A stretch of 64,000 nt of DNA. Source: Heliocybe sulcata. Lineage: Eukaryota > Basidiomycota > Agaricomycetes > Gloeophyllales > Gloeophyllaceae. The DNA lies in contig ML213537.1 of the NCBI GenBank assembly GCA_004369045.1, forward strand, positions 27,036 to 91,035, read 5' to 3'. Positions 6,213 to 33,056 of this stretch are shown here, in pieces. A program made the translations under genes and the position numbers. Below the pieces are notes generated by a model, which searched no databases, was not told the DNA's origin, and saw only the letters and a list, made by a program, of their open reading frames with translations. Positions within the stretch are counted from its first letter, which is position 1, and the number at the start of each line of letters is the position of its first letter.

Positions 6213-7550
6213 TCAGATTCGGTATGGATGGCGCCGGAGGTTCCAGCGCTGTTTGACAATCTCTCCCCCATCTGCAATTCTCCATTCTGCCCATTTTCCT
6301 CGTACATCCAATACATTGACTGACGCTTTTTCGAGCTCTCCTCGCCTCGAATTAAAAATATCCGTCACGGTATACTCAAAGGTATCGTCGGGCATCTCAG
6401 GAACGACGACCATGAGAGAAAGCTCCTTCATAGCTGGGACAAGTGGCATGGCTCCTGATAGGATAAGGTGGCTCAGGACGTCCTGGATGCCGCCTCCGGA
6501 GCTGTGCATAGCCTCGCAAGAGATGGCGAGGTGCATGACGGCGGGCAAAGCCGCAAGCAGTGTTCTAAACTCCGAGGGGTCATTCAAAATACCGTATTCC
6601 CTGAGATGTAACCGTTCCAGCTGGCATCCGGAGCGATCCAGCATCGTAAGTAAGCAGCGGATGAGAGACGCTGAGCGATAACTGGCTAAAAGGTCCAATG
6701 AGCGCAAACGGGGGGCATGAATGCAAGATAGGAAAGCGTCATGTGCCCCACGATAAAGGACTACGGTCAGCTCCTCCAGGTGCGGGAGCGATATGGCACA
6801 TCTTCCGGCGTGGAACCGAGACTCCGCGGCATCTAAATCTTGCATTGTGAACTTCAGCGATGCCAGAGATTGGCATCGCTGCAGGATTGTGGCGCAGACA
6901 AAGTCAAAGAACATGTGGTCTAAGGTGAGGTGAGTGACCTTTTCCCATTCGACTGACATGCTGTCTGAGACGTCAGGGACTCGCAAGGAGATGGAATGTA
7001 GTTGCGGAGCCAAAACGTGCTTGAATGAGATGTTTCCGGGGCCCGAGAGGGCGGTTCCCTCAAAAGAGAGCCGTCGGAGGAGAGGTAGCTCGACGGGCAC
7101 TCTGAAGATCTCCTGCCACGGCCCTTCGCATATCGTGAGCGAAAGCGCCTCGCAGCGGGACATGCAGACCCTCCACGTCTCAAAGCACTCTGCGGGAATA
7201 GACTTGCAGCGGTAGTCGGTTTTGATAGTGACAGAAATAGGGCACTCCTGAGCGCGAGTTATGCACAGGCGTAGGTGTTCCGTCAGGACAGGTATCTGCC
7301 GGGACAAGTAGGGCTTATGAAATTGGACTGCACTTCTGTCACAGACGAGCGCAACTGTGGACCATAGGATTGGAGAAGCTAGGGCGCAGTGCCTCCATCG
7401 AGAGCAAACTTGGACGAGAACGAATGGTAAGAAGCTGGGCTTCAGCTGGTAGATGCCGATATCACGCAGACAGATGAGGAAGATGTCGGATAGCAGCTCG
7501 GTCGGTAATTGATGAATGGGAGGAAAAGCGTCTCCTGGCATGATGCTCAT
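6213..7550 (-). CDS. F-box protein F1-1
   Basis: Single-exon F-box protein of about 445 residues if translation starts at the ATG at 7550 (MSIMPGDAF). The frame is open further upstream to an ATG at 7694, so the start is uncertain. The F-box is at the N-terminus: IHQLPTELLSDIFLICL, then VLVQVCSRWRHCA and LWSTV. The rest has regularly spaced Leu-rich segments (LRRLSFEG, LHSISLRVPD, LRSLDLLA, LERLHLREYG) like the leucine-rich substrate-binding half of agaricomycete F-box proteins. By family, it should bind Skp1 in an SCF ubiquitin ligase; the target is unknown. It shares a divergent promoter with F2-1. It is clearly more diverged from F1-2, F1-3 and F1-4 than those are from each other, and its C-terminus (RHPYRI) differs from their RLRLED-type end. 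Confidence 0.8.
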   Translation of the reverse strand: MSIMPGDAFPPIHQLPTELLSDIFLICLRDIGIYQLKPSFLPFVLVQVCSRWRHCALASPILWSTVALVCDRSAVQFHKPYLSRQIPVLTEHLRLCITRAQECPISVTIKTDYRCKSIPAECFETWRVCMSRCEALSLTICEGPWQEIFRVPVELPLLRRLSFEGTALSGPGNISFKHVLAPQLHSISLRVPDVSDSMSVEWEKVTHLTLDHMFFDFVCATILQRCQSLASLKFTMQDLDAAESRFHAGRCAISLPHLEELTVVLYRGAHDAFLSCIHAPRLRSLDLLASYRSASLIRCLLTMLDRSGCQLERLHLREYGILNDPSEFRTLLAALPAVMHLAISCEAMHSSGGGIQDVLSHLILSGAMPLVPAMKELSLMVVVPEMPDDTFEYTVTDIFNSRRGELEKASVNVLDVRGKWAEWRIADGGEIVKQRWNLRRHPYRI

Positions 7551-8080
7551 ATATTTTGGCGGTGGTCGTACGCTGTCGAGATTGATACTCTGGACCATGA
7601 GTATGCATGAGCCTATCGTGGAGGATGGTCCGACGACAAGGTAAGTAAGTGAGCCGTAGAATACATCGTGTACGCACGTACAAGTATCGATCAAACCCTG
7701 CGGACTACGAAAGATGCTACAGGTGTTGCTATTTCCGCAGCAGCTTTATGAAGCCGCAGCTGATTTGAGCTGGTCGAGTGAGCCCAGTGAGGCAGCGACT
7801 GCTTTCCCCAGATTTTGTCAAGGTCGGGGAACGCTGTACGCCATGTAGCTTTCGCAATACGAGAACGCGCAAGACGCAGGACTGTTCAAGGACTGTTACT
7901 TACTCCGAAGTGTTATCGATGTCGTCTGAATCTACCTCGGGTTCGCCCGAGAGCCTCTCCGTCCGAGCTTTCCTCGTCTCTGTATTGCGCTCGAGTTTGC
8001 TACGCAGAGCGTAGTCTGCGACAACTATTGCAAGGACCTTGTTTACTGCCAGAAGGACGCGGTGGCAGAAGTAGCCAGGA
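7551..8080. promoter_or_regulatory. divergent F1/F2 promoter, unit U1
   Basis: The region between the divergent starts of F1-1 and F2-1 should drive both genes. It contains the word TACGCACGTACAAGTAT (7671-7687), which recurs at corresponding positions in the other three units. A conserved tract including TGTATTGCGCTCGAGTTTGC near 7980 also recurs in U2. Its preservation while coding copies decay suggests a regulatory site, but it may only reflect recent duplication. Confidence 0.4.
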
Positions 8081-9718
8081 ATGTCCGACTTGTTGGCGGA
8101 GGGCGCGTTGCATCAGGATGACCATGGCCATAAACGTTCGTACCTTCACGCTGTGGATTCTGATCAACGGCCTTATACGAGGATTCGCATTGCATATGTA
8201 GACCAGATGAACTCAGAGTTTGACATGGACTCGGAGAGGGAGGAAGCAAATACAAGAAGTCCGATGGAGGTGACTCGCCACCCCGTCCTACATCAGAGTG
8301 AACTATCTGATCGAGCGTGAGCCTAGGAATATCGAGTGGCATACCCTGTGGCAGCGATCAACCAACTTCCGGTAGAGATCCTCTCAGCGATTATGGTTAT
8401 AGTCGTCGATGAATCCTTCGGTGCATACCACGGCCCCATGATTATTCCCGTACGCGTGTTTACCCCCTTGGTTCTGTCGCAAGTTTGTCGTCTTTGGCGT
8501 CAGTGTGCCCATGCAACACCACAACTGTGGTGCTCTGTGCTCATCCACGATCTGCCAGACCTCCGCAAGAAAGGTGAACTAGTCTGTCCGAACCTGCGGG
8601 TACAGACTGCGTTTCTAGAGACATGTGTCGCCCGTGCCCGGGCTTTGCCCTTGGAACTCATCTTGGGCATCCACAAGTTCTCGGACGACGTCGATGCATC
8701 TCTGGATGTATGGCGCTCCTCTATGGGTCGCTGCCGATCATTAGATATCACTTGCCCAGAGACCATCTGGGATGAGCTCTTCTCCTCGCCCATTGAGCTC
8801 CCGTTGCTCGAAAAGCTCGAATTGTCCATATTTCAAGACATAACCCAGACCCCACTCTCGCTGAATAGTTTGGCGATGCCGAAGCTCAAGCATCTGGAAA
8901 TCGCTCTTGAGGGAATCAGTGACACCCCTGATGGAATCGACTGGTCCCGGCTCTCCACGCTATCCATACACTCTGCCACATTTAATCGCCGCCTCGGCTC
9001 TGTCCTGGATCAATGTCCTGCGTTACGCCAGCTGGAGCTTGAGCTGGAAGTCATTGACATCGATCAGATGTGCAACATAACACTGCCATTTCTGGAGGAC
9101 TTCTATTGTTACATCCACGATTACGACAGGAACGGCGTTGCTAAACTCGTCTTTCCAAGCTTTGTGCTCCCTCGACTTCAGAAATTAACTGTCTATGCAC
9201 CGGACACGTACCCGCTTACTAAATCCTTGGCGCTCATGCTCCGCAGATCGGATTGCATGCTGGAGACGCTCGATATACACAATCGGTGCGCCATAGACAA
9301 TGGAGACCATTTCTACGAGTTGCTCATGAGCTGTCCCGCTCTGTCCTCGCTCACGGTCACGAGTGCGTATGGCACCGACGACACGTTCGCATCCATCGAC
9401 GAGTCCCTCTTCTGCCTCATCCGATCGGTCGACGGCTATCCTGCACCGAAACTCGATTGTCTGCTGCTCGGCCTTGAGGTTGATGAGACATACGTATGCT
9501 TCCCTTCCGACAGCGCGGTATCCGAGATTCTGAATGCCCGGCGGCTTCATGACCTCACCACGCCGCTCCGCGACGCGGACGTTGTTATCCACGGCGTCGA
9601 CGGTGTCAGTCGGATGGGATGGTTTGTCCGAGACGGAGGGGAGATACTTCGGAAAGGCGCAGATGATGACACACTGCAGGAAGACATCGACCGGGTTTGG
9701 CGGGGTCTGGCGCCGTAA
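8081..9718 (+). CDS. F-box protein F2-1
   Basis: Three exons: 8081-8135, 8202-8269, 8327-9718 (504 residues). The long last exon opens with no ATG: its first possible in-frame start is GTG, in all four copies. Two short upstream exons supply the start (MSDLLAEG) and join in phase, giving an acidic N-terminal tail before the F-box. The F-box is INQLPVEILSAIM, then LVLSQVCRLWRQCAHATPQL. Leu-rich repeats follow (LEKLELSI, LKHLEIAL, LRQLELELEV, LQKLTVYAP, LDCLLLGLEV). The C-terminus ends in a conserved module, MGWFVRDGGEILRKGA. Probable SCF substrate receptor, target unknown. The downstream HOP2 copy starts only 173 bp after its stop on the same strand. No break was seen. Confidence 0.85.
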
Positions 9719-9891: not shown

Positions 9892-10951
9892 ATGTCTTCC
9901 AAAGCCAAGAGCGATGTAAAGGTACTTAAAGGGCAAGAAGGTGACCCTCTGGACAGCTAAACTAGCTATTACAACTCACCAAATCTGACGCAAACTGCAG
10001 CGGAGGATCGAGTGCTCGCATACATCAAGAAAGTAAGTATCCTACCTGAGATATATCTACGTCAGGACCTCACCACACCAGATGAACCGTCCTTTTGGAG
10101 CAGTAGACGTCGCCGCCAATCTGAAAGGCGCCGTGCCAAAGACCGCGACTCAGAAGATCCTTCTCGCGCTCGCGGAGAAGAAAGAGGTGGTTCAGAAAGC
10201 ATACGGTTGAGTCGCGCATCATCACTCCACCTTCCTGATGGTCATGAACGTAGTCGTTCTGTAGGAAAGACGACGTTCTTTGTAGCGAACCAGGCGAATT
10301 TGGACGAGCTGCCGGCGGAGAGGCTCGCTGCTTTGGAGGTGGAGATCAAGGCTATGGACGAGGAGAACGCTGTCTTGGCAGCAGAAGTGAAAGCTGCTTC
10401 GTCTGGTCAGTTCTGCGTCCATCTCCTAGACGTCTCCCACCCATGAGCGCATCGATATAGAGCTCGCCAAGCTGAAGAGCACCCCGACGAACGACGAGCT
10501 CGCCACTCAGATCCAAGACGTCGCGCAAGCGGTACGTCCATCCCCATCTATCTCTCCTCTCCTCATCCTATCACGTACGACTCCGATTCCGCGACTGTAT
10601 GCGTACAGGTCGACAAAACACACAACCACCTCGCTCCTCTCCGCTCCGGCGCCCCGCTCATCTCTGCCGCCGAGACCGCGCAGCTCGACGCCGACTGGGA
10701 AAACTGGCGCGGCGAGTGGCTGCGCCGCAGAAACGTTTTCAAAACGTAGGCGGCAGCCCTGCCATTGGTATCGCCAGGATACTGATGGTGCTTATAGCTT
10801 CTGGGACATGGCCACAGACGCGCTGCCTCGCCAAGACGCGAATTCTCTCGCCGAAGACCTCGGTATCGAGTACGACACTGCCGAGCATGCTCTGCTGGAA
10901 CGCAACGCTCTGTGCACATCCCTGGGTGCTAAAGGCAAGCCCAAGAAGTAA
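9892..10951 (+). CDS. HOP2: HOP2/PSMC3IP-like meiotic recombination protein, copy 1
   Basis: Homologue of Hop2 (TBPIP), which with Mnd1 helps Dmc1/Rad51 strand invasion in meiosis; nuclear. Seven exons: 9892-9940, 10001-10032, 10082-10205, 10265-10405, 10461-10531, 10609-10745, 10798-10951; 235 residues, close to the human protein (217). The N-terminal winged helix contains EDRVLAYIKK, NRPFGAVDVAANLKG and ILLALAEKKEVVQKAYGK, then TTFFVANQANLDELPAE as in human YFADQDQF. Next come a coiled coil (ERLAALEVEIKAMDEENAVL) and the segment ELAKLKSTPTNDEL. The end, WENWRGEWLRRRNVFKTFWD with LGIEYDTAEH, corresponds to human KYCKEWRKRKRM and VGIETDED. All splice sites look usable. It is one of two intact-looking copies; the other is at 27.5-28.6 kb with identical exon lengths. 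Confidence 0.85.
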
Positions 10952-11349
10952 TCGATGCCCACTAACCCGTATCTCTTCTGTGCTGTACTCGACCTGCTCT
11001 ATGTAGTATTGACGTTCGGCCCGCCTCCTGTATCTCTCCACCATGTCATTCGGCGGGCCTGACGTGTGTAATCTTCACTGTGCTCTCATAATATACGCAT
11101 CATGGCGCCATTCAGCTATCATTGTCATGGGCGCGGAGAGCAACGCATGAAAACCAACATGGACTGCACGGGAGTCATGAGTGCGGTTCGACGTTCAAGC
11201 TGTACGTTTTGAGGGTATCGAGAGGCTTAGGATAGCATTACTCAACGCTCCTGTCTCTCCCGCCATCTAAGATTCATATTCTGCTATGCAAGAGTACTAG
11301 TCCCGTATGCCATAGTCCATGTAGGCTCCTACGAACCGTTGTAGCACCA
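10952..11349. other. HOP2-1 3' flank
   Basis: No gene. The block contains the word CATGTCATTCGGCGGGCCT (11043-11061), which recurs inverted downstream of HOP2-4 (about 27400) and of the truncated HOP2-3 (about 22395). It therefore marks the conserved 3' flank of the HOP2 unit. Confidence 0.6.
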
Positions 11350-11640
11350 TCCCAATGTCTCCATCAAGAAAGTAAATATCTGAGTCACGGCATTCACGGC
11401 AGCAGGCCGACCAGTACGTGGCCGCAATTCCGACAGGAGCCGTACCAAAGACCGTGACTCCTTGCACTCGCGGAGGAGGTGGTTTAAAAGCATACAGTAG
11501 AGCCACGAGCCACAAACTTATCTTCTTGATCGTCGCCCTGCTGCAGAAAGACCACGTTCTTCACAGCCCGGACCTGCTCGCTGCCGAATGAAGGCTCTCG
11601 ATGAAGAAAACGCGGTAGAACGGAGGCCTGACTCACGCTC
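11350..11640 (+). pseudogene. old HOP2 fragment A
   Basis: Diverged remnant of a second HOP2 copy in the U1 linker. Recognisable pieces in order: the exon 2 end ATCAAGAAAGTAA (11365); the winged-helix exon, with GGAGCCGTACCAAAGACCGT near 11438 matching GGCGCCGTGCCAAAGACCGC; the AAAGCATAC exon end; the intron plus GAAAGACCACGTTCTT matching the GKTTFF exon start; and an AAGGCTCTCGATGAAGAAAACGC block matching the coiled coil. It is too damaged to code. Inverted relatives lie at about 27.0 and 22.1 kb, so this fossil was part of the unit before the palindrome formed. Confidence 0.65.
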
Positions 11641-12357
11641 CCAGTCTTCCCTACAGATCCACCACTGCGTTTGATGGTGCAGACACAAGTCATACATGAA
11701 GACCGCACAGCGAGAACAGGGAGCAAAACCCCGGTGGTGTCGAATCGAGCGGGGCTGCGATACAGCAACCACACCATCCTGCACCGCCGACCTGGAAGAC
11801 ACAGGCGCCCGCGCCCGCGCACGGCCACGGCCTGTGGACGCCTCGTCCGATGCAGGCAGAAGAAGAAAGAGCGGCGCTGGCCGGTCGGGTGGAGCGGGTC
11901 TGACATCAGGAAAATGCAGGAAAGTGGCAGCGGTCAAGCCTCCGTCGACGCTGGCAGTAAGGGTGCGCATGAATCGTATTCAGCAAAACGCCGCGCTTAC
12001 ACACCACAAGGAGGGCCGCACGCATCGTCTGACCTGCAAAGAATAAGAGGCTGCGTATGACAATAGGGATGCCAACTAGCTTGGGCAGTGGGCGTATCTT
12101 ATATGTAGGAAATGGGAATGGGATGAGTCTCGCATTACAAGAAAAGAGAAGAGGACGAGCCGGGATGATCGGGTGCTGTGAATGCTTTGAGGCGAGAAGG
12201 ACCGCCACAACCTCGCTCTCGGGCCTGGACTGCAGGCGTAAATTCATTTTCTCCCAATAGTTCCACAAAGCACTTATCCTATTGCCGTCTTGCCACCTCT
12301 GCAATAACCGTCCCTCCGTCCCGGGACGTCGACCTATACCATGCTTCATCATCACGC
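11641..12357. repeat. linker block L1
   Basis: A GC-rich block repeated inverted at 26.25-26.85 kb and, more diverged, in the centre at 20.7-21.1 kb. Shared words include CCCGATCATCCC, CATATAAGATACGCCCACTGCC (inverse here) and GAAGACCGCACAGCGAGAAC. Frames stay open on both strands over 110-190 codons and are partly conserved between copies, but the openness in several frames at once fits GC-rich DNA better than a gene. I recognise no domain. Confidence 0.6.
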
Positions 12358-13665
12358 TCAGTCTTCGAGTCGGAGCCGCGTGACGATCTCTCCCTCGTCT
12401 GTAAGTCTCCACTCCGTGCTCATTCCTCGTACATCCACTACATAGATGACCGCCGCATCGAGTTCTTCACACCTGGAGTTGAGAATCTCTCGCACGGTGC
12501 CATCCAAGGCGTCGCGGTGCCCTTTAGGAAGCACGACGTGGAGAGAAAGCTCCTTCATAGCGGGGGCAAGAGGCATGGTACCGGAAAGAACAAGGTGGCT
12601 CAGAACGCCTTTGAAGCCGTCTACAGCCCGGGGCGAGACCCATCCGGAAATGCTGAGATGCAGGATGGTGGGCAACACCGAGAGCAAAGCTTTGAACTGT
12701 GCGGCATCATGTAGCACGCCGCCTCTATTAAGCTCCAGCCGTTCCAATTGACATCCAGAACGATCCAGCATGGGAAGTAGGCAGGAGATGATAGGCATTG
12801 ACACTTAGTCGGCTGAAAGGTCCAAAGAGCGCAAACGCGGTGTATGGATGCAAGATAAGAAAGCAGAGTAACCCCCATCACAGAAGGATCCGGTTAGTTC
12901 CTCCAGGTGCGGGAGTGATATCATCCATCTCTCGGAGTGGAACTGAGCCTCCTCGGCGTCATGATCTTTCATTCTGAACTTCAGCGATCGCAGAAACTGG
13001 AATCCTTGCAGGAACACAGCGCAGGAGAAGTCGAAGAGCATATACTTTACTAGGGTAAGGTGAGTGACTTTTCCCCGATCGATTCGCATCCTGTCTGAGA
13101 TGCTAGGAACTGCTAACGAGAGAGATTGTAGTTGCGGGGCCATGATGTGCTCGAATAAGATGTACTTCCGGTCCAAGGTGAAGTCCACCTCAAGCGATAG
13201 CCGTCGGAGGAGAGGTAGTTCGACGGGCACCCTGCAAATCTGCTGCAATGTCCACTCGCATCCCGAGAAAGAGAGCGCCTCGCAGCGGGGCATGCAGACC
13301 CTCCATTTCTCGAAGCAATCTTCGGGGATAGATTTGCGCGGATAGTTGGTTGCGAACGTGATTGAAACACGGACATCCAGCGCACGAGCCACGCACCGGC
13401 ACAGGTGTTCAGTGAGATTGGGTATCTGCTGGGACAAGAAAGGTTTTCGCAGGTCGCTTGGACTTCTGCAACAGACAAGCACAACTGTAGACCATAACTT
13501 GGGATACGCAAGAGCACAGTGCCTCCACCGGGAGCAGACTTGGACCAGAATGAAGGGTAAAAATGTCGGGCCTAGCTCGTAAACACCGATACTATGCAGG
13601 CAGATGAGGAAGATGTCGGACAACAGTTCAGTTGGGAGTTCATGTATCATATTTGGTGAGCCCAT
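12358..13665 (-). pseudogene. F-box gene F1-2, interrupted by one stop
   Basis: Collinear with the intact F1-4 over its whole length and nearly identical to it. It starts MGSPNMIHELPTELL with the F-box TELLSDIFLICL and VLVQVCSRWRHCA. One in-frame TAA at 12805-12807 replaces the cysteine codon found in F1-4 (LSAD-stop-VSMPIISC against LADCESRPIISY). Downstream the frame continues open to the normal end (RLRLED). Either a 286-residue truncated protein is made or the gene is a young pseudogene. It shares a divergent promoter with the intact F2-2. Confidence 0.75.
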
Positions 13666-14071: not shown

Positions 14072-15687
14072 ATGCCGGACTCGTTGGCACAGGGCGAGGA
14101 TGACCTTGGGCATATCGGTTAGTACGGTCACGCCTGTGAATCCTACTCGATGCCCTTATGATATGATACGCATTTTACGTAGACCAATTACAGCTAAAGT
14201 CTGGTATGGAGATGGAGGGTGCAGATACTGGAAGTCCGGCGGAGGTGATTCACCGCTACGGGATCCTGCATAAGCGTGGACTATCTGATCGAGCGTGAGC
14301 CTAGGAACACCTAGTGGCATACCGTGTGGCAGCGATCAACCAACTTCCGGTAGAGATTCTCTCAGCCATCATGGTCGAATTCGTCAATAATCCATACAGG
14401 GTGATCACCCTTACCCCCCGGTTTACCCACCAATTGGTTCTGTCGCAAGTCTGTCGTCTTTGGCGTCAGTGTGCCCATGCAACACCACGCCTGTGGAGCT
14501 CCGTGGTCATCTGGCAAGATGGCCGGCGGCCCGACCTCAGAAATAAAGATGAACCAAACCTGCGGACACAGACCGCGTTTCTAGACACCTGTGTCACTCG
14601 TGCTCGACCTTTGCCCTTGGACCTCACCTTACACATCTACGAGCCCTCAGATGACGTCGATGCATCTCTTGATATATGGCGCTCCTCTATGAGTCGCTGC
14701 CAATCATTACATGTCTATTGCCCAGAGATCGTCTGGGATGAGCTCGTCTCCACGACCATTGAGCTGCCGTTGCTCGACAAACTCGAATTGTGCATATTTG
14801 AACGCGAAACCCAGACCCCACTCTCGCTGAATAGTTTGGCGATGCCGAAGCTCAAGCACCTGGAAATCGATCTTGAAGGAGTCGGTGACACCCCTGATGG
14901 AGTCGACTGGTCCCAGCTCTCCACGCTAGCCATACGATTCGCGAATGTTAATCGCCGCCTCAACTCTGTCCTGCATCAATGCCCCGCTTTACGGCGGCTG
15001 GTGCTTGGGCTCGAAGTCATTGGCATCGATCACATGTGCAACATAACACTGCCATTTCTGGAGGACTTCTATTGTTCCATCTACGATGAAGAAGAGGACG
15101 GCCTTGCTCAACACGTCTTTCCAAGTTTTGTACTCCCCCGACTTCAGAAACTAACTGTCTATGCGTCGGACACACACCCGCATACCAAACCATTGGTGCG
15201 CATGCTCCGCAGATCGGGTTGCATGCTGGAGATGCTCGATATTCACAATCGGGGTGTCATAGACAATGGAGACCATTTCTACGAGCTGCTCATGAGCTGT
15301 CCCGCTCTGTCATCGCTCACGATCACGGGCGTCTATGATGGCACCTACGGCGCGTCCACGTCCATAGATGATTCCCTTCTGCGCCTCATCCGAATGGTCG
15401 ACGGCTATCCTGTCCCGAAACTCGAATGCCTCCTGCTCGGCCTTAAAGTTGGCCAGACAGACGGACGCTTCCCTTCCAACAGCGTGGTATCCGAGATCCT
15501 GAATGCGCGGCGGCTTCAGGACCCCACCACGCAGCTCCGCGAGGCGGACGTTGTCATCCACGGCATGGACAGTGTTCGTCGGATGGGATGGTTCGTCCGA
15601 GACGGAGGGGAGATATCTCGGAAAGGCGCGAGAGATGACACGCTGCAGGAAGATATCATGCGGGTTTGGCGGGGTGCGGACCTGTAA
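14072..15687 (+). CDS. F-box protein F2-2
   Basis: Three exons: 14072-14117, 14183-14244, 14305-15687 (496 residues). The small first two exons give MPDSLAQGEDDLGHIDQ and an acidic linker; the third begins EHLVAYRVAAINQ and runs to the stop at 15685. The F-box is LPVEILSAIM with LVLSQVCRLWRQCAHATPRL, followed by Leu-rich repeats and the C-terminal MGWFVRDGGEISRKGA module. It is intact and close to F2-1 and F2-3. A partial extra copy of its own C-terminus follows at 15738. Predicted SCF receptor with unknown target. Confidence 0.85.
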
Positions 15688-15737
15688 GGAGTTCTGACGA
15701 CCTAATCTCGGCATTCTGCATCTACGCGCCCATCTTG

Positions 15738-16188: not shown

Positions 16189-17035
16189 ATGTCTTCCAAA
16201 GCCAAGAGCAATGTAAAGGTACTTAAGGGCAAGAAGCTGACCCTCTGGATAGCTAAACTAGCTGTTACAACTCACCAAATCTAACGCAAACTGCAGCGGA
16301 GGATCGAGTGCTCGCATGCATCAAGAAAGTAAGCATCCTACCTGGTATATATCTACGTCAGGACCTCACCGCCCGTTCGGAGCAGTAGACGTCGCCGCAA
16401 ACCTGAAAGGCGCCGTGCCAAAGACCGCGACTCGGAAGATCCTCCTCGCGCTCGCGGAGAAGAACGAGGTGGTTCCGAAAGCATACGGTTGAGTCGGGCA
16501 TCATCACCCCACCTTTCTGATGGTCATGAACATAGTCGTTCTGTAGGAAAGACAACGTTCTTTGTAGCGAACCAGGCGAACCTGGACGAGCTGTCGGCAA
16601 AGAAACTCGCTGCTTTAGACACCGAAACCAAGGCTATCGACGAAACGAACGCAGCCTTGACAGCAAAACTCAAAACCACATCTACCGGTCGGTCTCTCGT
16701 CCCACTCACACGCGCATCGCCAAGCTAAAAGGCACCCCCACGAACGACGAGCTCAGTACTCAAATCCAAACCGTCGCGCCATCCCCTCCCCTCACCCAGT
16801 CCGTCAGATCGACAAAACACACACCCACCTCGCGCCTCTCCGCTCCGGCACCACCTGGCGCGTCGAATGGGTCCGCCGCAGAACCGTCTTCAAAACGTAC
16901 GCGCCCCCGCACTCCCAATCGCACTTCCTTCCAGCTTCTGAGACACAGCCGCCGACGCGCTCCCCCGCCAAGACGACACCGCCGAGCACGCCCTCACCGC
17001 TCCACGCACATCCCTCAAACTCAAAAGGTAATCCA
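16189..17035 (+). pseudogene. HOP2 copy 2, decayed
   Basis: Starts like copy 1 (MSSKAKSNVKVL) but shows several lesions. The first donor is lost (GCTGACC instead of GGTGACC) after a one-base loss. About 16 bases around the exon 3 acceptor and its MNR codons are missing. The segment after the coiled coil is shortened, and the C-terminal exons keep only pieces (DKTHTHLAPLRSG, RRRTVFKT, EHALTA). Codons elsewhere remain near-identical to copy 1, so decay is fairly recent. It ends convergent with the axis gene. Confidence 0.75.
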
Positions 17036-19804: not shown

Positions 19805-20449
19805 GTAGGAGAAGTGCGGTTGTGGAGGTCAAGTACAAGTTGAAGAGGCCACGTGGTTGTAATTTACGGCCCTGGCTCCGAAGCGTTGGTCTTCTCTTCG
19901 ACTGTCGTAACGCTGCATTGTGTGGCTGAGACAACGTTCGTTGATTTGCACGGTGATTGCGCAGCCTCAACTTTAAACGACACCATCTTTAGACTCTGTC
20001 TGTTCGGCTATCTCTGTAAACATGGCCAGGGACATCTCGCCTGATGGAGCACGTTCAAGTCACTTTTACAGGACCTCTGCAGGGACAACGCTCTTCGTGA
20101 TGAACCCACCACAAGAGTTACGGCAACTTGTCCTGCTTCTCCACCAAAGTCCCCGACAAGTCTCGCTGGCCTTATTGTCGGAAGACTAGACTCGACACGT
20201 ACTATTCTCCTTCGATGCATCTACCGGGACGTACTCGCCAGACGAAAATCGCATCGCCTGCTCCGTCCAGGACGACACTCCAGAACCCCGCCTACCTTCT
20301 CCGACTCACGCAAGTACTGTAGGGTGGTAAAGACGCAGCAGAGGTTCCGTGGGCTGTATCAGGGACTTGGATCAGCGACGTAAGCGTGCACACCCTCTTC
20401 ACCAGTGTAACTGCTGGCCATTCTAATTTATCGTAGCCCGCCTGCTCTT
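19805..20449. other. axis gene upstream region
   Basis: No gene seen. This is the presumed promoter and 5' region of the axis gene. It has no obvious counterpart on the left side of the axis, so the palindrome centre is asymmetric: about 200 bp separates HOP2-2 from the axis gene on the left, but 645 bp separates the axis gene from the first repeated block on the right. Confidence 0.4.
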
Positions 20450-21700: not shown

Positions 21701-22009
21701 ACGGTTTCTTCTCCTCTCTTAGCGGACTCGTCGCCATCTCCGACATACGATACCCCATCGCTTGATCTATCCCGCAAGAAGCCGTGCACCTCAGACGGGA
21801 CGCGGTTTTCCTGACCGACCAGCGCTGCGCTTTCTCCTTCTGTGACCCACGCCCGTGAGGCGTGTACGACAGTGCAATCCTCGTGCGCATCTCGCACACC
21901 GCCGCGTGGTGCATCTGATTTTCTGCCAGCTCTCCGTTCTCGCTGGGAGGTCTGCACCAGCCGCGGCAGATCTGTGCGACGGTCTTGATCCTGTCTCTAA
22001 CGCAGCTCG

Positions 22010-22235
22010 GGTCGGGAGACCGTGGTCTTTCTGCAGCAGCAAAAACGTTCAGAACGATCAGGAAGATGGAATTACCAATCGCATTGCTATCGTATGCTTT
22101 CTGCTCCACCTCTTCCTTCACCGCGCTCTGTCCATGGTACGCCTCCTTCAGATCTGCGGTGCCGTCTACTAGACCATCTGCGGTACATACGATGCTTGCT
22201 TTCTTGATGTAGACATTCTGGGGTGGTGCTGTTAT
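22010..22235 (-). pseudogene. old HOP2 fragment C
   Basis: Read on the minus strand it contains TACATCAAGAAAGCAAGCAT (exon 2 end and intron), a winged-helix-like block ending GCAGAAAGCATACG, and an intron with TTCCATCTTCCTGATCGTT that matches the HOP2 third intron. Large parts are replaced. It is the central counterpart of fragments A and B and is not coding. Confidence 0.55.
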
Positions 22236-22479
22236 GGTTGGCAGGGGACTCTCGACTGCCGCGTACGGGATTTGAACGCACGAAGCGCTAGATGGTTGAG
22301 CAATACTATCTTATATGCCTCTCAGTACGAGTAGAAACTCTTAAAACTCGTGCAGTCGACGTTGGCTTTCCTGTGTTGTCACATACACGGCAGGCCCGCC
22401 GAATGACATGGAGGAGAGACACAGGAGACGGGCCGGATGTCAGTATTATAAAGTTGAAAACGATCAGGAAGATGGAACT

Positions 22480-22795
22480 ATGACTCGCGGCTCTGCCGTA
22501 TGCTTTCTGAACGACTTCTTTCTTCTTCGCGAGCGCGAGGAGGATCTTCGGAGGCGCGGTCTTTGGCACGGCGCCTTTCAGGTTTGCGGCAATGTCTACA
22601 GTTCCGAAAGGGCGGTTCATCTCTTCCTGTGAGGTGATAACGTAGATGTATATACGGCCAGGCAGGATATTTACTTTCTTGATGTATGCGAGCACTCGAT
22701 CCTCCGCTGCAGTTTGCGTGAACATTTGGTGAGTTTTAGCTATTCTTCTTGTCCTTTGAGCACCTTGATATGCCGCTCTTTGTTTTGGAAGACAT
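22480..22795 (-). pseudogene. HOP2 copy 3, truncated
   Basis: Keeps the ATG exon (frame altered by one extra base: MSSKTKSG then off frame), the EDRVLAYIKK exon and the winged-helix exon (NRPFGTVDIAANLKGAVPK, then ILLALAKKKEVVQKAYG). Immediately after the third intron begins, the sequence jumps at about 22455 to the HOP2 3' flank (GGCCCGCCGAATGACATGG). The coiled coil and C-terminal exons are therefore deleted, about 0.8 kb relative to copy 1. Only the DNA-binding half remains. Confidence 0.75.
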
Positions 22796-22985: not shown

Positions 22986-24607
22986 TTACGCCTCCAAACC
23001 CCGCCACAGCCGGTGGATATCTTCCTGCAGTGTGTCATCCTCTGCGCCTTTCCGAAGTATCTCCCCTCCGTCTCGGACAAACCATCCCATCCGACTGACA
23101 CTGTCGACGCCGTGGATGACAACGTCCGCCTCGCGGAGCGGCGTGGTGAGGTCATGAAGCCGCCGGGCATTCAGGATCTCGGATACCGCCCTGTCGGAAG
23201 GGAAGCATCCGTCTGTCTCGCCAACTTCAAGGCCGAGCAGTAGATATTCGAGTTTCGGTGCAGGAAAGCCGTCGACCGATCGGATGAGGCGGAGGAGGGA
23301 CTCGTCGATGGATGTGGACGGGCCGCACGTGCCCTTGACCGTGAGCGAGGACAGAGCGGGACAGCTCATGAGCAACTCGTAGAAACGGTCTCCATCGTCT
23401 ATGGCGCCAAAATTGTGTATATCGAGCGTCTCCAGCATACAACCCGATCTGCGGAGCATGCGCGTCAAGGGTTCGGTAAGCGGGTGCGTGTCCGGTGCAA
23501 AGACAGTTAATTTCTGAAGTCGAGGGAGTACAAAGCTTGGAAAGACGTGTTCAGCAAGGCCGTCCTCTTCTTGATCATAGATGTCACAACGGAAGTCTTC
23601 CAGATATGGCAGTGTTATGTTGTACATCTGATCGATGTCAATGAATTCAAGCCCAAGCCCCAGCTGGTGTAGCGCGGGGCATTGTTCCAGGACAGAGCAG
23701 AGGTGACGATTAAATGTCGCGGATGCCATGACTAGCGTGGAGAGCCGGTGCCAATCTACTCCATCTGGGGTGTCATTGTTTGGCCCAAGATTGATTTCCA
23801 GGTGCTTGAGCTTCGGCATCGCCAAACTATTCAGCGAGAGTGGGGTCTGGGTTATGTCTGGAAATATGGACAATCCGAGCTTTTCGAGGAATGGGAGCTC
23901 AATGGGCGAGTGGACGAGCTGATCCCAGATGGTATGTGGGCAATTGATATCTAATGATTGGCAGCGACTCATAGAGGAGCGCCATATCTCCAGAGATGCA
24001 TCGACGTCGTCTGAGGACTCGTGGATGTGGAAGGTGAGGTTCAAGGGCAGAGCTCGAGCTCGGGTGACATAGATGTTTAGAAACGCGGTCTGTACCCGCA
24101 GGTTCGGATAGACTGGTACATCGTCGGGCGGATTGGGACCTTGCCGGATGAGCCGGATGAGCACGGAGCACCACAGCCGTGCTGTTGCATGGGCACACTG
24201 ACGCCAAAGGCGACATACTTGCGACAGAACCAAGGGGATAAACACGCGTACGGGAGTAATCGCGGGGCCCTTGCATGTTCCAAGGGATTCGTCGCGTGCA
24301 GCGGCTACAACCATAATCGCTGAGAGGATCTCTACCGGAAGTTGGTTGATCGCTGCCACAGGGTATGCCACTAGATGTTCCTAGGCTCACGCTCGATCAG
24401 ATAGTTCACTCTTATGCAGGACGGCGCGGTGAGTCACCTCTGCCCGACTTCCTGTAGTCGCGTCCGCTATCTCCGCCCCGGACTTTCTCTGCAATTGATC
24501 TACGTAAAACGCAAATCATCGTGTAGGGACAAATAGGATTCACAAGCGTGACTGTACTAACCGATATGCCCAAGGTCGACCTCGCTCTGTGCTAACGAGT
24601 CCGACAT
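22986..24607 (-). CDS. F-box protein F2-3
   Basis: Three exons on the minus strand: 24562-24607, 24438-24499, 22986-24380 (500 residues). Start MSDSLAQSEVDLGHID, second exon ending TTGSRAE, third starting EHLVAYPVAAINQ. The F-box is LPVEILSAIM with LVLSQVCRLWRQCAHATARL, then Leu-rich repeats and MGWFVRDGGEILRKGA at the end. No break was seen, in contrast to its tandem sister F2-4. Exon 1 and 2 lengths (46 and 62 nt) equal those of F2-2 and F2-4. Predicted SCF substrate receptor. Confidence 0.85.
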
Positions 24608-25026: not shown

Positions 25027-26131
25027 ATGATACATATGTGAACTCCCAACTGAACTGCTGTCCGACATCTTCCTCATCTGCCTGCATAGTATCGGTGTTT
25101 ACGAGCTAGGCCTGACATTTTTACCCTTCATTCTGGTCCAAGTCTGCACTCGGTGGAGGCTCTGTGCTCTTGCATATCCCAAGCTATGGTCTACAGTTGC
25201 GCTTGCCTGTTGCAGAAGGCCAAGCGACCTGCGAAAGCTTTCTGGTCCCAGCAGATACCCAATCTCACCGAACACTTGTCCCGGTGCGTGGCTCGTGCGC
25301 AGCATGTTCCTGTATCAATCACTTTCGCAACCAACTATCCGCCCAAATCCATCCCCGAAGATTGCTTCGAGAAATGGAGGGTCTGCATGTCCCGCTGCGA
25401 GGTGCTCTCTTTCTCGGGATGCGAGTGGACATTGCAGCAGATTTGCAGGGTGCCCGTCGAGCTACCTCTCCTCCCACGGTTGTCGCTTGAGGTCGACTTC
25501 ACCTTGGACCGAAAGTAAATCCTATTCGAGCACATCATCGCCCCGGAACTACAATCTCTCTCATTAGGAGTTCCTAGCATCTCAGACAGGATGCGAATCG
25601 AATGGGGTAATGTCACTCACCTCACCTTACTAAAGTGCATGCTCCTTGACTTCTCCTGCGCCGCGTTCTTGCACGGATGCCAATTTCTGCGATCCCTATC
25701 ATCTCCTGCCTACTTCCCATGCTGGATCGCTCTGGATGTCAATTGGAACGGCTGGAGCTTAAGAAAGGCGGCGTGCTACATGATGCCGCACAATTCAAAG
25801 CTTTGCTCTCGGTGTTGCCTGCCATCCTGCATCTCAGCATTTCCGGATGGGTCTCGCCCTGGGCTGTAGACGGCTTCAAAGGCGTTCTGAGCCACTCATT
25901 TTCTCCGGCACTACGACTCTTGCCCCCGCTATGAAGGAGCTTTCTCTCCACGTCGTGCTTCCTAAAGGGCACCGCGACGCCTTGGATGGCACCGTGCGAG
26001 AGATTCTCAACTTCAGGTGTGGGGAACTCGATGCGGGGATCATCTATGTAGTGGATGTACGAGGAATGAGCACGGAGTGGAGACTTACAGACGAGGGAGA
26101 GATCGTCACGCGGCTCCGACTCGAAGACTGA
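25027..26131 (+). pseudogene. F-box gene F1-3, heavily broken
   Basis: Homologous to F1-4 throughout. Stops follow soon after the ATG at 25027 because the F-box start is frame-damaged. Another stop replaces the cysteine codon after LEVDFTLDRK. About 190 bp are deleted near 25695, joining FLRSL directly to the PIISCLLP region, and a further one-base loss lies near 25890. Intact-looking stretches remain (KSIPEDCFEKWRVCMSRCE; PKGHRDALDGTVREILN; end RLRLED). It cannot make the full protein. Confidence 0.8.
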
Positions 26132-26244
26132 GCTCGATGATGAAGCATGGTATAGGTCGACGTCCCGGGACAGAGTGACGGTTATTGCAGAGGTGGCAAG
26201 GCGGCAATCGGATAAGTGCTTTTATCGAACTATTGAGAGGAAAT

Positions 26245-26850
26245 GACTCTATGCCTGCCCGAGAGCGAGGTTGCGGCGGTCGTTCTCGCCTGAAAGCATT
26301 CACAGCACCCGATCATCCCGGCTCGTCCTCTTCTCTTCTCCGGTAGTGCCAGACTCATCCCATTCCCATCTCCCACATATAAGATACGCCCACTGCCCAA
26401 GCTAGTTGGGATCCCTATTGTCATACGGAGCCATGCGGGCGGTCCTCCTTGTGGTTTGGAAGCGCGGCGTTTTGCTGCATACGATTCGTGCGCACCCTTA
26501 CTGCCAGCGTCGACGGAGGCTTGGCCGCTGCCACTTTCCTGCATTTCCCTGGTGTCAGAACAGCTCCACCCGACCAACCAGCGCCGCTCTTTCTTCTTCG
26601 GCCTATGTCGGGCGAGGCGTCCACTGGCCGTGGCCGTGCGCGGGCGCTTGTGTCTTCCAGGTCGGCGGTGCAGGATGGTGTGGTTGCCGTATCGCAGCCC
26701 CGCTCGATTCGACACCACCGGGGTTTTGCTCCCTGTTCTCGCTGTGCGGTCTTCATGTATGACTTGTGTCTGCACCATCAAACGCACTGGTGGATCTGTA
26801 GGGAAGACTGAGAGCGCGAGCCAGGCCTCCCTTCTGCCGCGTTTTCTTCA
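26245..26850. repeat. linker block L4
   Basis: Inverted counterpart of 11641-12357, sharing CCCGATCATCCCGGCTCGTC, ACATATAAGATACGCCCACT and GAAGACTGAGAGCGCGAG. As on the left, both strands are open over long stretches and no domain is recognised. A transcribed but non-coding role cannot be excluded. Confidence 0.6.
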
Positions 26851-27110
26851 TTGAGAGCTTTCACTCGGCAGCGAGCAGCTCGTCCGGGTCGTGATGAACA
26901 TGGTCTTCCTGCAGTAGGGCAAACCTTACGACGGTCAAGAAGATAAGCTCGTGGCTCGTGGCTTTACTGTAGGCTTTCTGAACCACCTCCTCCGCAAGTG
27001 CAGGGAGTCACGGTCTTTGGTACGGCTCCTGTCGGAATTGCGGCGACGTACTGGTCGGCCTAGAATGCCGTGACTCAGATGTTTACTTTCTTGATGGAGA
27101 CATTGGGACG
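26851..27110 (-). pseudogene. old HOP2 fragment B
   Basis: Inverted counterpart of fragment A. On the minus strand it shows CATCAAGAAAGTAAACATCT, GGAGCCGTACCAAAGACCGT and a CTGCAGGAAGACCATGTTCA block matching the TTFF exon start. It is too decayed to code. Fragments A and B are much closer to each other than to the full HOP2 genes. Confidence 0.65.
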
Positions 27111-27507
27111 GTGCTACAACGGTTCGTAGGAAGCCTACATAGACTGTGGCATACGGGACTAGTACTCTTGCATAGCAGAATATGAATCTTAGATGGCGGG
27201 AGAGACAGGAGCGTTGAGTAATGTTATCCTATGCCTCTCGATACCCTCAAAACGTACAGCTTGAACGTCGAACCGCACTCATGACTCCCGTGCAACCCAT
27301 GCTGGTTTTCATGCGTTGCTCTCCGCGCCCATGACAATGATAGCTGACTGGCACCATGATGCGTATATTATGACAGCACAGTGAAGATTACACTCGTGAG
27401 GCCCGCCGAATGACATGGTGGAGAGATACAGGAGACGGGCTGAACGTCGATACTACATAGAGCAGGTCGAGTACAGCACAGAAGAGATACGGGTTAGTGG
27501 GCATCCA
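27111..27507. other. HOP2-4 3' flank
   Basis: No gene; inverted counterpart of 10952-11349, including AGGCCCGCCGAATGACATGG near 27400. Confidence 0.6.
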
Positions 27508-28563
27508 TTACTTCTTGAGCTTGCCTTTAGCACCTAGGGATGTGCACAGACCGTTGCGTTCCAGCAGAGCATGCTCGGCAGTGTCGTACTCGATTCCGAG
27601 GTCTTCGGCGAGGGAATCCGCGTCTTGGCGAGGCAGCGCGTCTGTGGCCATGTCCCAGAAGCTACAAGCACCGTCAGCATCCGGGCGATACGAATGGCAG
27701 GGCTGCCGCCTACGTTTTGAAAACGTTTCTGCGGCGCAGCCACTCGCCGCGCCAGTTTTCCCAGTCGGCGTCGAGCTGCGCGGTCTCGGCCGCGGAGACG
27801 AGCGGGGCGCCGGAGCGGAGAGGAGCAAGGTGGTTGTGTGTTTTGTCGACCTGTACGCATATAGTCGCGAGATCGCGGTCGCAGGTGGTCAGGACAGAGA
27901 GATAGGCATGGACGTACCGCTTGCGCGACTCCTTCGATCTGACTGGTGAGCTCGTCGTTCGTCGGGGTGCTTTTCAGCTTGGCGAGCTCTATATCGACGC
28001 ACTCATGGGTGGGAGACGTCTAGGAGATGGACGCAGAACTGACCAGACCAAGCGGCTTTCACTTCTGCTGCCAAGACAGCGTTCCCCTCGTCCATAGCCT
28101 TGATCTCCACCTCCAAAGCAGCAAGCCTCTCCGCCGGCAGCTCGTCCAAATTCGCCTGGTTCGCTACAAAGAACGTCGTCTTCCCTACAGAACCACGGCG
28201 TTCATGACCATCAGGAAGGTGGAGTTATGACGCCCAACTCAACCGTATGCTTTCTGAACCACCTCTTTCTTCTCCGCGAGCGCGAGGAGGATCTTCTGAG
28301 TCGCGGTCTTTGGCACGGCGCCTTTCAGATTGGCCGCTACGTCTACCGCTCCAAACGGGCGGTTCATCTGGTGTGGTGAGCCTGAGGTCCTAACGTAGAT
28401 ATATCCCAGGTAGGATACTCACTTTCTTGATGTATGCGAGCACTCTATCCTCCGCTGGAGTTTGCGTCAGTTTTGGTGAGTTGTAATAGCTGGTTTAGCT
28501 ATCCAAAGGGTCACCTTCTTGCCCTTTAAGTACCTTTACATCGCTCTTGGCTTTGGAAGACAT
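27508..28563 (-). CDS. HOP2: HOP2/PSMC3IP-like meiotic recombination protein, copy 4
   Basis: Seven exons on the minus strand: 28515-28563, 28423-28454, 28244-28367, 28044-28184, 27918-27988, 27714-27850, 27508-27661. Every exon has the same length as in copy 1, giving 235 residues. The winged helix (NRPFGAVDVAANLKG) is identical over this part. Substitutions against copy 1 cluster in and after the coiled coil: MDEGNAV for MDEENAV, KAAWS for KAASS, LTSQIEGV for LATQIQDV, and KGKLKK for KGKPKK at the end. Both copies look functional. By family, the protein is nuclear, binds Mnd1 and promotes meiotic strand exchange. Confidence 0.85.
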
Positions 28564-28773: not shown

Positions 28774-30423
28774 TTACGCCTCCAAACCCCGCCACACCCA
28801 GTCGATATCATCCTGCAGTGTGTCATCATCTGCGCCTTTCCGAAGTATCTCCCCTCCGTCTCGAACGAACCATCCCATCCGACTGACACTGTCGACGCCG
28901 TGGATGACAATGTCCGCCTCGCGGAGCGGCGTGGTGAGGTCATGAAGCCGCCGGGCATTCAGGATCTCGGATATCGCGCTGTCGGAAGGGAAGCATCCGT
29001 CTGTCTTGCCAACTTCAAGGCCGAGCAGTACATATTCGAGTTTCGGTGCAGGATAGCCGTCGACCGATCGGATGAGGCAGAGGAGGGACTCGTCGATGGA
29101 TGTGGACGGGCCGAAGGTGCCGTACGTGCCGTACGTGCCCGTGACTGTGAGCGAGGACAGAGCGGGACAGCTCATGAGCAACTCGTAGAAATGATCTCCA
29201 TCGTCTATGGCGCCAAAATTGTGTATATCGAGCGTCTCCAGCATACAACCCGATCTGCGGAGCATGCGCGTCAAGGGTTCGGTAAGCGGGTGCGTGTCCG
29301 GTGCAAAGACAGTTAATTTCTGAAGTCGAGGGAGCACAAAGCTTGGAAAAACGAGTTTGGCAAGGCTGTCCTCGTCGTGATCGTAGATGGAACAATGGAA
29401 GTCCTCCAGACATGGCAGTCTTATGTTGCACATCTGATCGATGTCAACGACCTCAAGCCCAAGCTCCAGCTGGCGTAGCGCGGGGCATTGATCCAGGACA
29501 GAGCAGAGGCGATGATTAAATGTAGCAGTGTATGGCTAGCGTGGAGAGCTGGGACCAGTCGACGCCATCAGGGGTGTCATTGACTCCCCAAAGAGCGATT
29601 TCCAGCTGCTTGAGCTTCGGCATCGCCAAACTATTCAATAGGAGTACTGGGGTTTGGATTTGGCGTTGCCATATGGCGAATCCGAGCTTTTCGAGCAACG
29701 GGAGCTCAATGGGCGAGTAGAAGAGCTGATCCCAGATGGTATCTGGGCAATTGACATATAACGATTGGCAGCGACTCATAGAGGAGCGCCATATATCCAG
29801 AGATGCATCGACGTCGTCTGAGGACTGGTGGATTTGGAACGTGAGGTTCATGGGCAAAGCTCGAGCACGGGTGACATAGGTGTTTAGAAACGCGGTCTGT
29901 AGGAGCAGGTTCGGATAGACTCGTACATCTTTCTTGCTGAGGTCGGGCGGATCGGGACCTTGCCGGATGAGCACGGAGCACCACAGCCGTGCTGTTGCAT
30001 GGGCACACTGACGCCAAAGGCGACAGATTTGTGACAGAACCAAGGGGGTAAACACACGTACGGGAGTAGTTATGAGGCCGTGGCATGCACCGAAGCATTC
30101 GTCGCAGGCATCGACAGCTACAACCATAATCGCTGAGAGGATCTCTACCGGAAGTTGGTTGATCACTGCTACAGGGTATGCCACTCGATGTTCCTAGGCT
30201 CACGCTCGATCAGATATTTCACTCTGATGCAGGACGGCGCGGTTAGTCACCTCTGCCCGACTTCCTGTAGTCGCGTCCTCCATCTCCGTGCCAGACTTTC
30301 TCTGCAATTGATCTACGTAAAGAGCAAATTATCGTGTAAGGACATCGAATAGGATTCACAAGCGTGACTGTACTAACCAATATGCCCAAGGTCGACCTCG
30401 CCCTGTGCTAACGAGTCCGACAT
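28774..30423 (-). pseudogene. F-box gene F2-4, one frameshift
   Basis: Same three-exon layout as its sister F2-3: 30378-30423, 30251-30312, 28774-30193. The N-terminal half (MSDSLAQGEVDLGHID, F-box LPVEILSAIM) and the C-terminal half (from MCNIRLPCLED to the end) are each open, but they lie in different frames. A two-base deletion near 29523, inside the region matching IHSATFNRRL of F2-1, separates them. The break looks recent because both halves are otherwise well conserved. Confidence 0.75.
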
Positions 30424-30869: not shown

Positions 30870-32174
30870 ATGATACACAAACTCCCAGCTGAGCTGCTGT
30901 CCGACATCTTCCTCATCTGCCTGCATAGTATCGGCATTTACAAGCTGGGCCCGACATTTCTACCCTTCATTCTGGTCCAGGTCTGCTCTCGGTGGAGGCA
31001 CTGTGCTCTTGCGTGTCCCAGGCTATGGTCTACAGTCGCGCTTGTCTGTCACAGACTCGGAAGGCCAAGCGACCTGCGAAAGCCTCTCTTGACACCATCC
31101 CGGCAGATACCCAATCTCACCGAACACCTATCCCGGTGCGTGGCTCGTGCGCAGCATGTTCCTGTTTCAATCACGTTCGCAACCAACTATCCGCACAAAT
31201 CTATCCCGGAAGATTGCTTCGAGAAATGGAGGGTCTGCATGCCCCGCTGCGAGGCGCTCTCTTTCTCAGGATGCGATTGGATGTTGCAGCAGATTTGCAG
31301 GGTTCCCGTCGAATTACTTCTCCTCCGACGGCTATCGCTTGAGATGGACTTCACCTTGGAGAGAAAGTGCATCTTATTCGAGCACCTCATGGCCCCACAG
31401 CTCCAATCTCTCTCGCTAGGAGTTCCTAGCATTTCGGACAGGACGCGAATCGCACGGGGAAAGGTCACTCACCTCGCCTTACTAAAGTATATGATCTTCG
31501 ACTTCTCCTGCGCCGCGTTTCTGCAAGGATTCCAATCTCTGCGATCACTGAAGTTTAGAATGGAACACCATGATGCCGAGGAGGCTCAGTTATACCCCGA
31601 GAAATGGATGATATCACTCCCGCACCTGGAGGAGCTGAGTGCATCCTTCTGTGACGGGGGTTACTATGCTTTCTTATCTTGCATCCATACCCCACGTTTG
31701 CGCTCTTTGAACGTTTTAGCCGACTGCGAGTCAAGGCCTATCATTTCCTACTTACTTCCCATGCTGGATCGCACTGGGTGTCAATTGGAACGGTTGGAGC
31801 TTGATAGAGGCGGCGTGCTACATGATGCCACAGAGTTGAAAGCTTTGCTCTCGGCGTTGCCCGCCATCCTGCATCTCCGCATTGTCGGATGGGTCCCATT
31901 CTGGGCTGTAGACGGCTTCAAAGATGTTCTGAGCCAACTTATTCTCTCCGGCACCACGCCTCTTGCCCCCGCTATGAAGGAGCTTTCTCTGCAGGCAGGG
32001 GTTCTTCCTAAACGGCACGGCAAAGTCTTGGATGGCACCGCGCGAGAGATTCTCAACTCCAGGCGTGGAGAACTCGATGCGGGGTCCATCTATGTTGTGG
32101 AACAACGAGAAAGGAGCACGGAGTGGAGACTTACAGAGGGAGAGATCGTCACGCTGCACCGATGCGAAGATTGA
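30870..32174 (+). CDS. F-box protein F1-4
   Basis: Single exon, 434 residues, and the best preserved F1 copy. It begins directly with the F-box: MIHKLPAELLSDIFLICL, then FILVQVCSRWRHCALACPRL. Leu-rich segments follow (LRRLSLEMDF, LQSLSLGVPS, LRSLKFRM, LRSLNVLADC, LERLELDRGG, LHLRIVGWVP, MKELSLQAGV). The C-terminus has REILNSRRGELDAGS and ends HRCED. Upstream, an in-frame stop in TTGTTCTAGG makes the ATG at 30870 the first usable start. Predicted SCF substrate receptor with unknown target. It pairs divergently with F2-4, which is broken. Confidence 0.85.
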   Translation: MIHKLPAELLSDIFLICLHSIGIYKLGPTFLPFILVQVCSRWRHCALACPRLWSTVALVCHRLGRPSDLRKPLLTPSRQIPNLTEHLSRCVARAQHVPVSITFATNYPHKSIPEDCFEKWRVCMPRCEALSFSGCDWMLQQICRVPVELLLLRRLSLEMDFTLERKCILFEHLMAPQLQSLSLGVPSISDRTRIARGKVTHLALLKYMIFDFSCAAFLQGFQSLRSLKFRMEHHDAEEAQLYPEKWMISLPHLEELSASFCDGGYYAFLSCIHTPRLRSLNVLADCESRPIISYLLPMLDRTGCQLERLELDRGGVLHDATELKALLSALPAILHLRIVGWVPFWAVDGFKDVLSQLILSGTTPLAPAMKELSLQAGVLPKRHGKVLDGTAREILNSRRGELDAGSIYVVEQRERSTEWRLTEGEIVTLHRCED

Positions 32175-33056
32175 GCTCGATGATGAAGCATGGTATAGGT
32201 CGACATCCTGGGGTAGAGTGATGGTTATTGCAGAGGTGGCAAGGCGGCAATAGGATAAGTGCTTTGTAGAACAATCGAGAGAAAATGAATTTACGAATCT
32301 GCTAGGCTCTTATATGTGGTTTGTGAGGTCCGATGTAGTTAGTGTAGTTCAACGTCCACCACTTGCCGCTGCATGTACTTGGTCCGTTCAGGCGAGGTAT
32401 AGCTTTAGACTCTCCTTAAGGCCTTGCGTAAGAGGGAGACCCGACGAACTGGTGTGCGTAACGTGCGCGAAGGTGAGTACGTTCTCTGCTGACAGATCTC
32501 AGACGTATCTTTGTGAATTTCATGCACATACTGGGTATAGCTTACAGGGTCTGCTCGCCTAGGAAAGCATGGACATGCAGCTTTCGTCGGGCCGGCCTCA
32601 TGATTCCGTTTCCTGCTGTTTTGGTGAACACAGGTCGTCCATTTCCGACCTTGCCATCGTACTCGGATGATGTTCTCGTTAATCTGCTCCGAGATGGCCG
32701 AGTATAATGATGACGACAACCCAAGTTCGCAACCTGCTTCATGCTCCCAGATCACCGGTGTTCTCACTGGGAGAGGCTCTGAGACAGGCGCGGATGAGTT
32801 TATAAATGACTGTGCTCAATACACGCAGTATCCCGAGCTCACCGACGCCGTTCATCCCGTTGCTGATGATTAACAACTGTTTTCAGGGAATGGCAATGCT
32901 GCGATGAAACATACGCACAGCCCACAGTCCGAATACCTGCCCGCGCGTTCTTCAAGACGCTTAAATGGTGCTCTAACGGAGTCGTGTAACTCTTCGTATC
33001 AAGACAATCCTTTGTGCTACGAGGACATCTTCATCCTCAGTACAACATACGACACG
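32175..33056. other. right boundary of the palindrome and AP2 upstream
   Basis: 32175-32295 is the F1 3' flank shared with U2 and U3. Beyond it the sequence is unique. No gene is recognised; the short frames on both strands have no known domains. Confidence 0.5.

Follow-up and report, generated by a model that had tools for sequence, protein, structure and literature searches.

The 64,000-nucleotide stretch of the Heliocybe sulcata genome analysed here (the window, C35:27036-91035 on the 177,002-base contig C35) contains a mirrored array of four copies of a unit of about 5-6 kb, which comprises an F-box-like gene (F1), an F-box/leucine-rich-repeat (LRR)-like gene (F2), the meiosis gene HOP2 and a spacer. 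Units A and B lie on the plus strand and units C and D are inverted, with an Etd1-like gene between B and C. The array is probably an old, interrupted inverted segmental duplication which was built on an older tandem pair and was subsequently altered by birth-and-death of its genes and by local exchange within the arms. All comparisons are between copies within one genome assembly (31.6 Mb in 51 contigs), as assembled.

Within each unit F1 points outward, F2 and HOP2 point towards the centre, and the spacer comes last. Self-comparison of the window by BLAST agrees with the original prediction that the unit is present twice on the left and twice inverted on the right of an axis near 19.2 kb, placing the axis at 19,202-19,259 for the A-D pair and at 19,340-19,502 for the B-C pair. 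The anti-diagonal consists of inverted blocks that match 7963-12798 with 30555-25692 (87.5% identity over 4,950 aligned columns), 12983-15695 with 25697-22978 (83.6%) and, for F1-A against F1-D, 6254-7499 with 32151-30891 (69.8%). Direct repeats are present inside the left arm (7955-9731 and 13935-15700, 79.9%) and inside the right arm (22460-25697 and 28207-31549, 86.1%), and the E-values of the five main blocks, which are 0 or 3.6e-147, are far beyond chance. The homology extends to introns, to the stretch between F1 and F2 and to the linkers at the A/B and C/D joints, so that the inverted block is collinear and includes non-coding DNA, as in an inverted segmental duplication; the earlier claim of a structural duplication extending beyond the genes is upheld to this extent. 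The likeness of the arms, which had also been claimed, is genuine in the mirrored blocks but is not uniform, since F1-A is only 60-76% identical to the F1 genes of B, C and D, and the predicted similarity of the linkers is well kept only at the within-arm joints. The coordinates of all features are collected in Table 1.

Table 1. Units, genes, spacers and flanking features of the array (window coordinates)
Feature	Position	Strand	Remarks
Unit A	about 6.2-12.24 kb	plus	
Unit B	12.24-17.05 kb	plus	
Unit C	20.6-26.25 kb	inverted	
Unit D	26.25-32.3 kb	inverted	
Outer edge of unit D	32288..32296	.	Position within the unit identical to that of the A/B and C/D joints
F1-A	6216..7598	-	Open, 461 codons from ATG at 7598; diverged from the other three F1
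F1-B	12361..13650	-	Frame split by one in-frame stop, 12805-12807
F1-C	25027..26250	+	4-bp insertion just after start codon; 190-bp internal deletion near 25695
F1-D	30870..32171	+	Open, 434 codons
F2-A	8225..9715	+	Open; short exon 1 proposed from ATG 8225 and exon 2 from 8327, with start and intron predicted
F2-B	14206..15684	+	F-box/LRR-like, open; proposed short exon 1 from ATG 14206
F2-C	22989..24380	-	Exon-2 frame open; proposed exon 1 without in-frame ATG
F2-D	28777..30283	-	Frameshift from 2-bp deletion near 29533
HOP2-A	9892..10951	+	Complete 7-exon model, 235 amino acids; stop codon in range
HOP2-B	16189..17034	+	Degraded, several deletions; ends approximate
HOP2-C	22450..22795	-	Truncated; 5' exons (winged-helix part) only; inner end approximate
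HOP2-D	27508..28563	-	Complete 7-exon model, 235 amino acids; stop codon in range
Spacer of unit A, up to A/B joint	10952..12236	+	Sequence matches
Spacer of unit D, up to C/D joint	26251..27507	-	Sequence matches
Spacer remnants, inner side of unit C	20722..22300	-	Scattered; self-BLAST, sequence matches
Central Etd1-like gene	17244..19828	-	PF20162 only in frame 18263-19828; extent approximate
Aspartyl protease gene, left flank	3791..5211	+	Outside palindrome; extent from open frames
Aspartyl protease gene, right flank	33326..34933	+	Extent from open frames

The order of events is judged largely from the joints between units and from the topologies of the segments. The same breakpoint between spacer and F1 is found at the A/B and C/D joints, and the outward homology of unit D stops at that very point. 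An inverted duplication younger than the tandem joint would leave just this pattern, and unit D may have kept the ancestral outer edge. Junctions of this age no longer show what caused the original break or template switch; inverted repeats were searched for at three joints, and the single 10-nt pair that came up, at A/B, explains nothing. The opposite order, in which an inverted duplication of a single unit came first and the second unit of each arm was added later by tandem duplication or by exchange between arms, appears unlikely. It would account for the grouping of C with D in the promoter and F2 trees described below, which a tandem duplication in the right arm would produce, but the F1 tree groups B with C, and both this tree and the breakpoint common to the two arms would require a later transfer from arm to arm.

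A four-way alignment of units A-D, read in 250-column windows, shows that different segments support different trees, and therefore that no single history fits all segments. Over F1 (columns 0-1749) B, C and D are mutually 84-97% identical, while A is the divergent copy. Over the F1-F2 intergenic part and F2 (columns 1750-3749) six of eight alignment windows have C and D as the most similar pair. A and D are 88-97% identical from column 4750 onward, a range that takes in the spacer and, starting with exon 4, HOP2. Four-point bootstrapping gives the topology AD/BC (A with D, B with C) in 499 of 500 replicates for F1, and AB/CD in 497 of 500 for the promoter and in 473 and 463 of 500 for the first and second halves of F2. 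Informative sites follow the same pattern, with 27 AD/BC, 7 AB/CD and 11 AC/BD sites in F1 against 11, 44 and 8, respectively, over the stretch that runs from the promoter through F2 (Fisher p 4e-8 for the first two classes). The mosaic may be the result of exchange, and the best-supported exchange-like signal in these alignments is that between C and its tandem neighbour D, both in the right arm; for F1, an exchange between B and C is conceivable as well. A run-length test for conversion yields long agreeing runs both between arms (A-D, B-C) and inside them (C-D, A-B), and its counts are used neither way because the shuffles ignore the far higher divergence of F1-A and of parts of HOP2-C; the argument is based on the trees of the segments.

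The synonymous divergence (dS) between copies falls at two levels. Pairs at the tandem level have values of 0.209 (B-D) and 0.214 (C-D) in F1 and of 0.251 (A-B), 0.223 (B-C) and 0.265 (B-D) in F2, and pairs at the inverted level have values of 0.141 (B-C) in F1, 0.158 (A-D) and 0.139 (A-C) in F2, and 0.114 (A-D) in HOP2. The F2 value for C-D, 0.109, suggests that this pair was overwritten later. The best-fitting history begins with a locus F1-F2-HOP2-spacer which would have been duplicated in tandem (dS about 0.21-0.27). The two-unit block would then have been duplicated in inverted orientation (dS about 0.11-0.16), leaving the Etd1-like gene between the arms, after which the copies would have drifted while tandem neighbours in an arm partly overwrote each other. 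Redundant genes would finally have decayed, with F1 and HOP2 staying open in the outer units and F2 in A and B.

Several observations weigh against this sequence of events. The dS intervals of the tandem and inverted levels overlap, and the order of events consequently leans on the shared joint and the topologies more than on ages. Two of the eight alignment windows of columns 1750-3749 have a closest pair other than C and D: at window 2750 A is nearest to B and C, and at window 3000 A is nearest to D. HOP2 exons 1-4 give no clear topology (AB/CD 348, AD/BC 135 and AC/BD 17 of 500), and the distance A-B there is 0.078 against 0.089 for A-D, so that one has to suppose either an additional exchange between A and B or uneven rates. 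F1-A, with a dS of 0.71-0.76 to the other copies, does not match a simple A-B-B'-A' scheme, and a further event is required to account for it. The close similarity between A and D begins between F1 and F2, at about 7.96 kb; F1-A may therefore be an older resident F-box gene beside the end of the inverted copy, or else a later replacement.

Inverted repeats are common places of misassembly, and an apparent palindrome could be produced by a fold-back read, by mis-joined haplotypes of a dikaryon or by collapsed copies. An assembly artefact of this kind is nevertheless highly improbable here, given that the main blocks of the array differ by 12-32%, that each copy carries separate lesions, and that four mutually diverged copies lie on a single 177-kb contig. 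Outside the units, the flanks at 5.23-6.26 kb and 32.29-33.3 kb are also unlike each other and have no match elsewhere in the window, and the aspartyl protease genes beyond them are in direct rather than mirrored orientation.

Gene conversion between the arms finds no support as the principal signal in the comparison of the copies. Homogenisation from arm to arm is rejected as the main process, since the identity between arms is 87.5% for A-D, 83.6% for B-C, 69.8% for F1 A-D and 93% for the A-D spacer. Repeat-induced point mutation was also considered and left no clear signature. The transition/transversion ratio is 1.18-1.42. Compared with the stretch at 36-64 kb, where TpA/ApT is 0.75 and (CpA+TpG)/(ApC+GpT) is 1.19, the units have values of 0.65-0.69 and 1.14-1.22, respectively. 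Copy-specific changes of C>T/G>A compared to the reverse number 132/128 in A, 63/53 in B, 44/32 in C and 46/28 in D, a mild excess in C and D and hardly any in A and B.

HOP2 had been predicted in every unit, and the identity of the family is solid, although complete gene models are found only in A and D, the copy in C being truncated and that in B having suffered deletions. HOP2-A scores 58.8 bits against the winged-helix domain PF07106 (cut-off 22.8), resembles the solved HOP2 structure 2mh2_A (E 2.2e-6, residues 17-83) and also matches 4y66_B, a putative tbpip family protein (E 6e-4, residues 23-209). A PF07106 search of the whole assembly, in which counts are lower bounds for large families and stretches reading N are not searchable, gives four matches, all four over the cut-off and all inside the array. 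The corresponding search for the partner MND1 (PF03962) gives one match over the cut-off, on contig C5. All introns of HOP2-A and HOP2-D are GT-AG, and the two proteins differ at 10 residues. There are 17.5 synonymous and 10.5 non-synonymous differences between these two copies (dN/dS, the ratio of non-synonymous to synonymous divergence, 0.17; Fisher p 8e-6), and 35 differences in 341 aligned intron bases. HOP2 is usually expected as a single copy. Judged from these substitutions, HOP2-A and HOP2-D have diverged under constraint, and the two apparently intact copies are the least ordinary feature of the locus; both may be in use. HOP2-B is at a distance of 0.078 from A at its 5' end and of 0.295 at its 3' end, as if the 5' end had been partly overwritten by A while the 3' end decayed.

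The F-box label proposed for F1 and F2 is provisional. PF12937 (F-box-like) scores are 14.9-23.4 bits in five of the seven frames scanned (F2-D and F1-C were outside the scan), and none of the seven is over the curated cut-off of 24.3; F1-A scores 17.1 bits, and F1-D and the 3' piece of F1-B have no match. The LRR label depends on one score just above the cut-off, that of F2-B (27.3 against 27.0). The single lesions in the gene copies (Table 1) could be sequencing errors. Relatives of F2 give 39 matches genome-wide, including the array copies, on C35, C13, C5, C31 and other contigs. Two of them lie on C35 outside the window, at C35:15652-16977 (42% protein identity, one stop in the matched frame) and C35:3378-4490 (38% protein identity), which makes that contig end an F-box neighbourhood. 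No telomere repeat is seen in the first 10 kb of C35, the only end of the contig that was looked at.

The amino acids of F2 change fast, with dN/dS of 0.57-0.93 across the six pairs. The cluster might have been amplified under selection for dosage or variety, additional HOP2 or rapidly changing F-box proteins being of benefit (or selfish). The two intact and constrained HOP2 copies are in keeping with such selection, as is the retention of an open F2 frame by A and B, and by C in exon 2, in spite of rapid change. In raw counts over 60-codon windows of F2, the proportion of non-synonymous differences (pN) exceeds that of synonymous differences (pS) in nine of 40 pair-by-window cells, including three of five pairs at codons 121-180, all three involving A. 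The remaining 31 cells have no such excess, however, none of the six pairs has dN above dS when F2 is taken as a whole (with overlapping intervals for A-C), and two of the four F1 and two of the four HOP2 copies are broken, which leaves selection of this kind a rather slim prospect. A locus of genetic conflict, in which rapidly evolving F-box-like genes and additional HOP2 copies were co-amplified as mirror images for a meiotic role, for example as driver or suppressor, and the surviving HOP2 copies diverged in role, is the most remote of the possibilities considered.

The spacer is well preserved at the two within-arm joints only, is shrunken in unit C and is not detected in unit B. The A and D spacers are 93% identical, with 77 differences in 1,124 aligned bases and 73 gap columns. 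As a query against the genome the spacer gives four matches: itself, the copy at the C/D joint (90%) and two fragments of 74% and 88% on the inner side of C. All four lie inside the array, and the spacer is rejected as a dispersed repeat, with the qualification that four matches do not prove rarity, since simple repeats and very common words are passed over in the search.

The central gene had been described as single-copy, which is correct within the array, but a protein query finds a weaker relative at C1:2720496-2721047 (three pieces, 51-55% identity). The frame of the central gene scores 32.4 bits against PF20162 (cut-off 27.5); the genome search with PF20162 gives no match, yet it missed this known positive in the window, and the protein query was used instead. 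The region at 16-21 kb has a G+C content of 60-66% and, at 16-19 kb, a strong GC skew (about -0.4); both set it apart from the rest of the window. The two flanking proteases are 65% identical in DNA over 970 aligned columns and 50-54% identical in protein. Since they are in direct orientation, the mirrored order ends at the units, and they may be an older tandem pair that was split by the array. To the right of the array, three of the seven frames scanned have matches, to an alcohol dehydrogenase-like protein (41.7-42.4 kb), an O-methyltransferase (47.4-48.2 kb) and a cytochrome P450 (60.7-61.3 kb). Short direct repeats of about 120-150 bases, 74-79% alike, occur at 1714-2468, where the left end of the window is rich in A+T.

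The possible origin and decay of a mirrored multi-copy locus can be read clearly in this array, in which exchange seems to have taken place between tandem neighbours instead of across the palindrome. The two apparently intact HOP2 copies would matter for counting meiosis genes, or for deleting HOP2, in this fungus; apart from them, the locus looks like ordinary genome evolution. The publications listed, which deal in general with palindromes, with copy-number variants in inverted orientation and with inventories of meiosis genes, contain, in the portions available, no recognisable report of this locus or arrangement, or of HOP2 duplication in a mushroom.

In fungi, F-box/LRR genes form local birth-and-death clusters, which the array resembles in its fast-diverging, clustered F-box-like genes and their broken copies, and from which it differs in that the block also carries the conserved meiosis gene HOP2. 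The arms of mammalian sex-chromosome palindromes are near-identical, whereas the arms described here are 7-32% apart and the best exchange signal lies within one arm, between tandem neighbours. Large gene-bearing inverted arms are common to both, and in the mammalian case the palindromic structure is reportedly kept by conversion between the arms (PMC6790999). Inverted segmental duplications and inverted copy-number variants, such as those attributed to template switching, are like the array in being inverted copies of chromosomal blocks (PMC4689423, PMC10766183); compared with these, each arm of the present array is itself a two-unit tandem array, and its copies are old.

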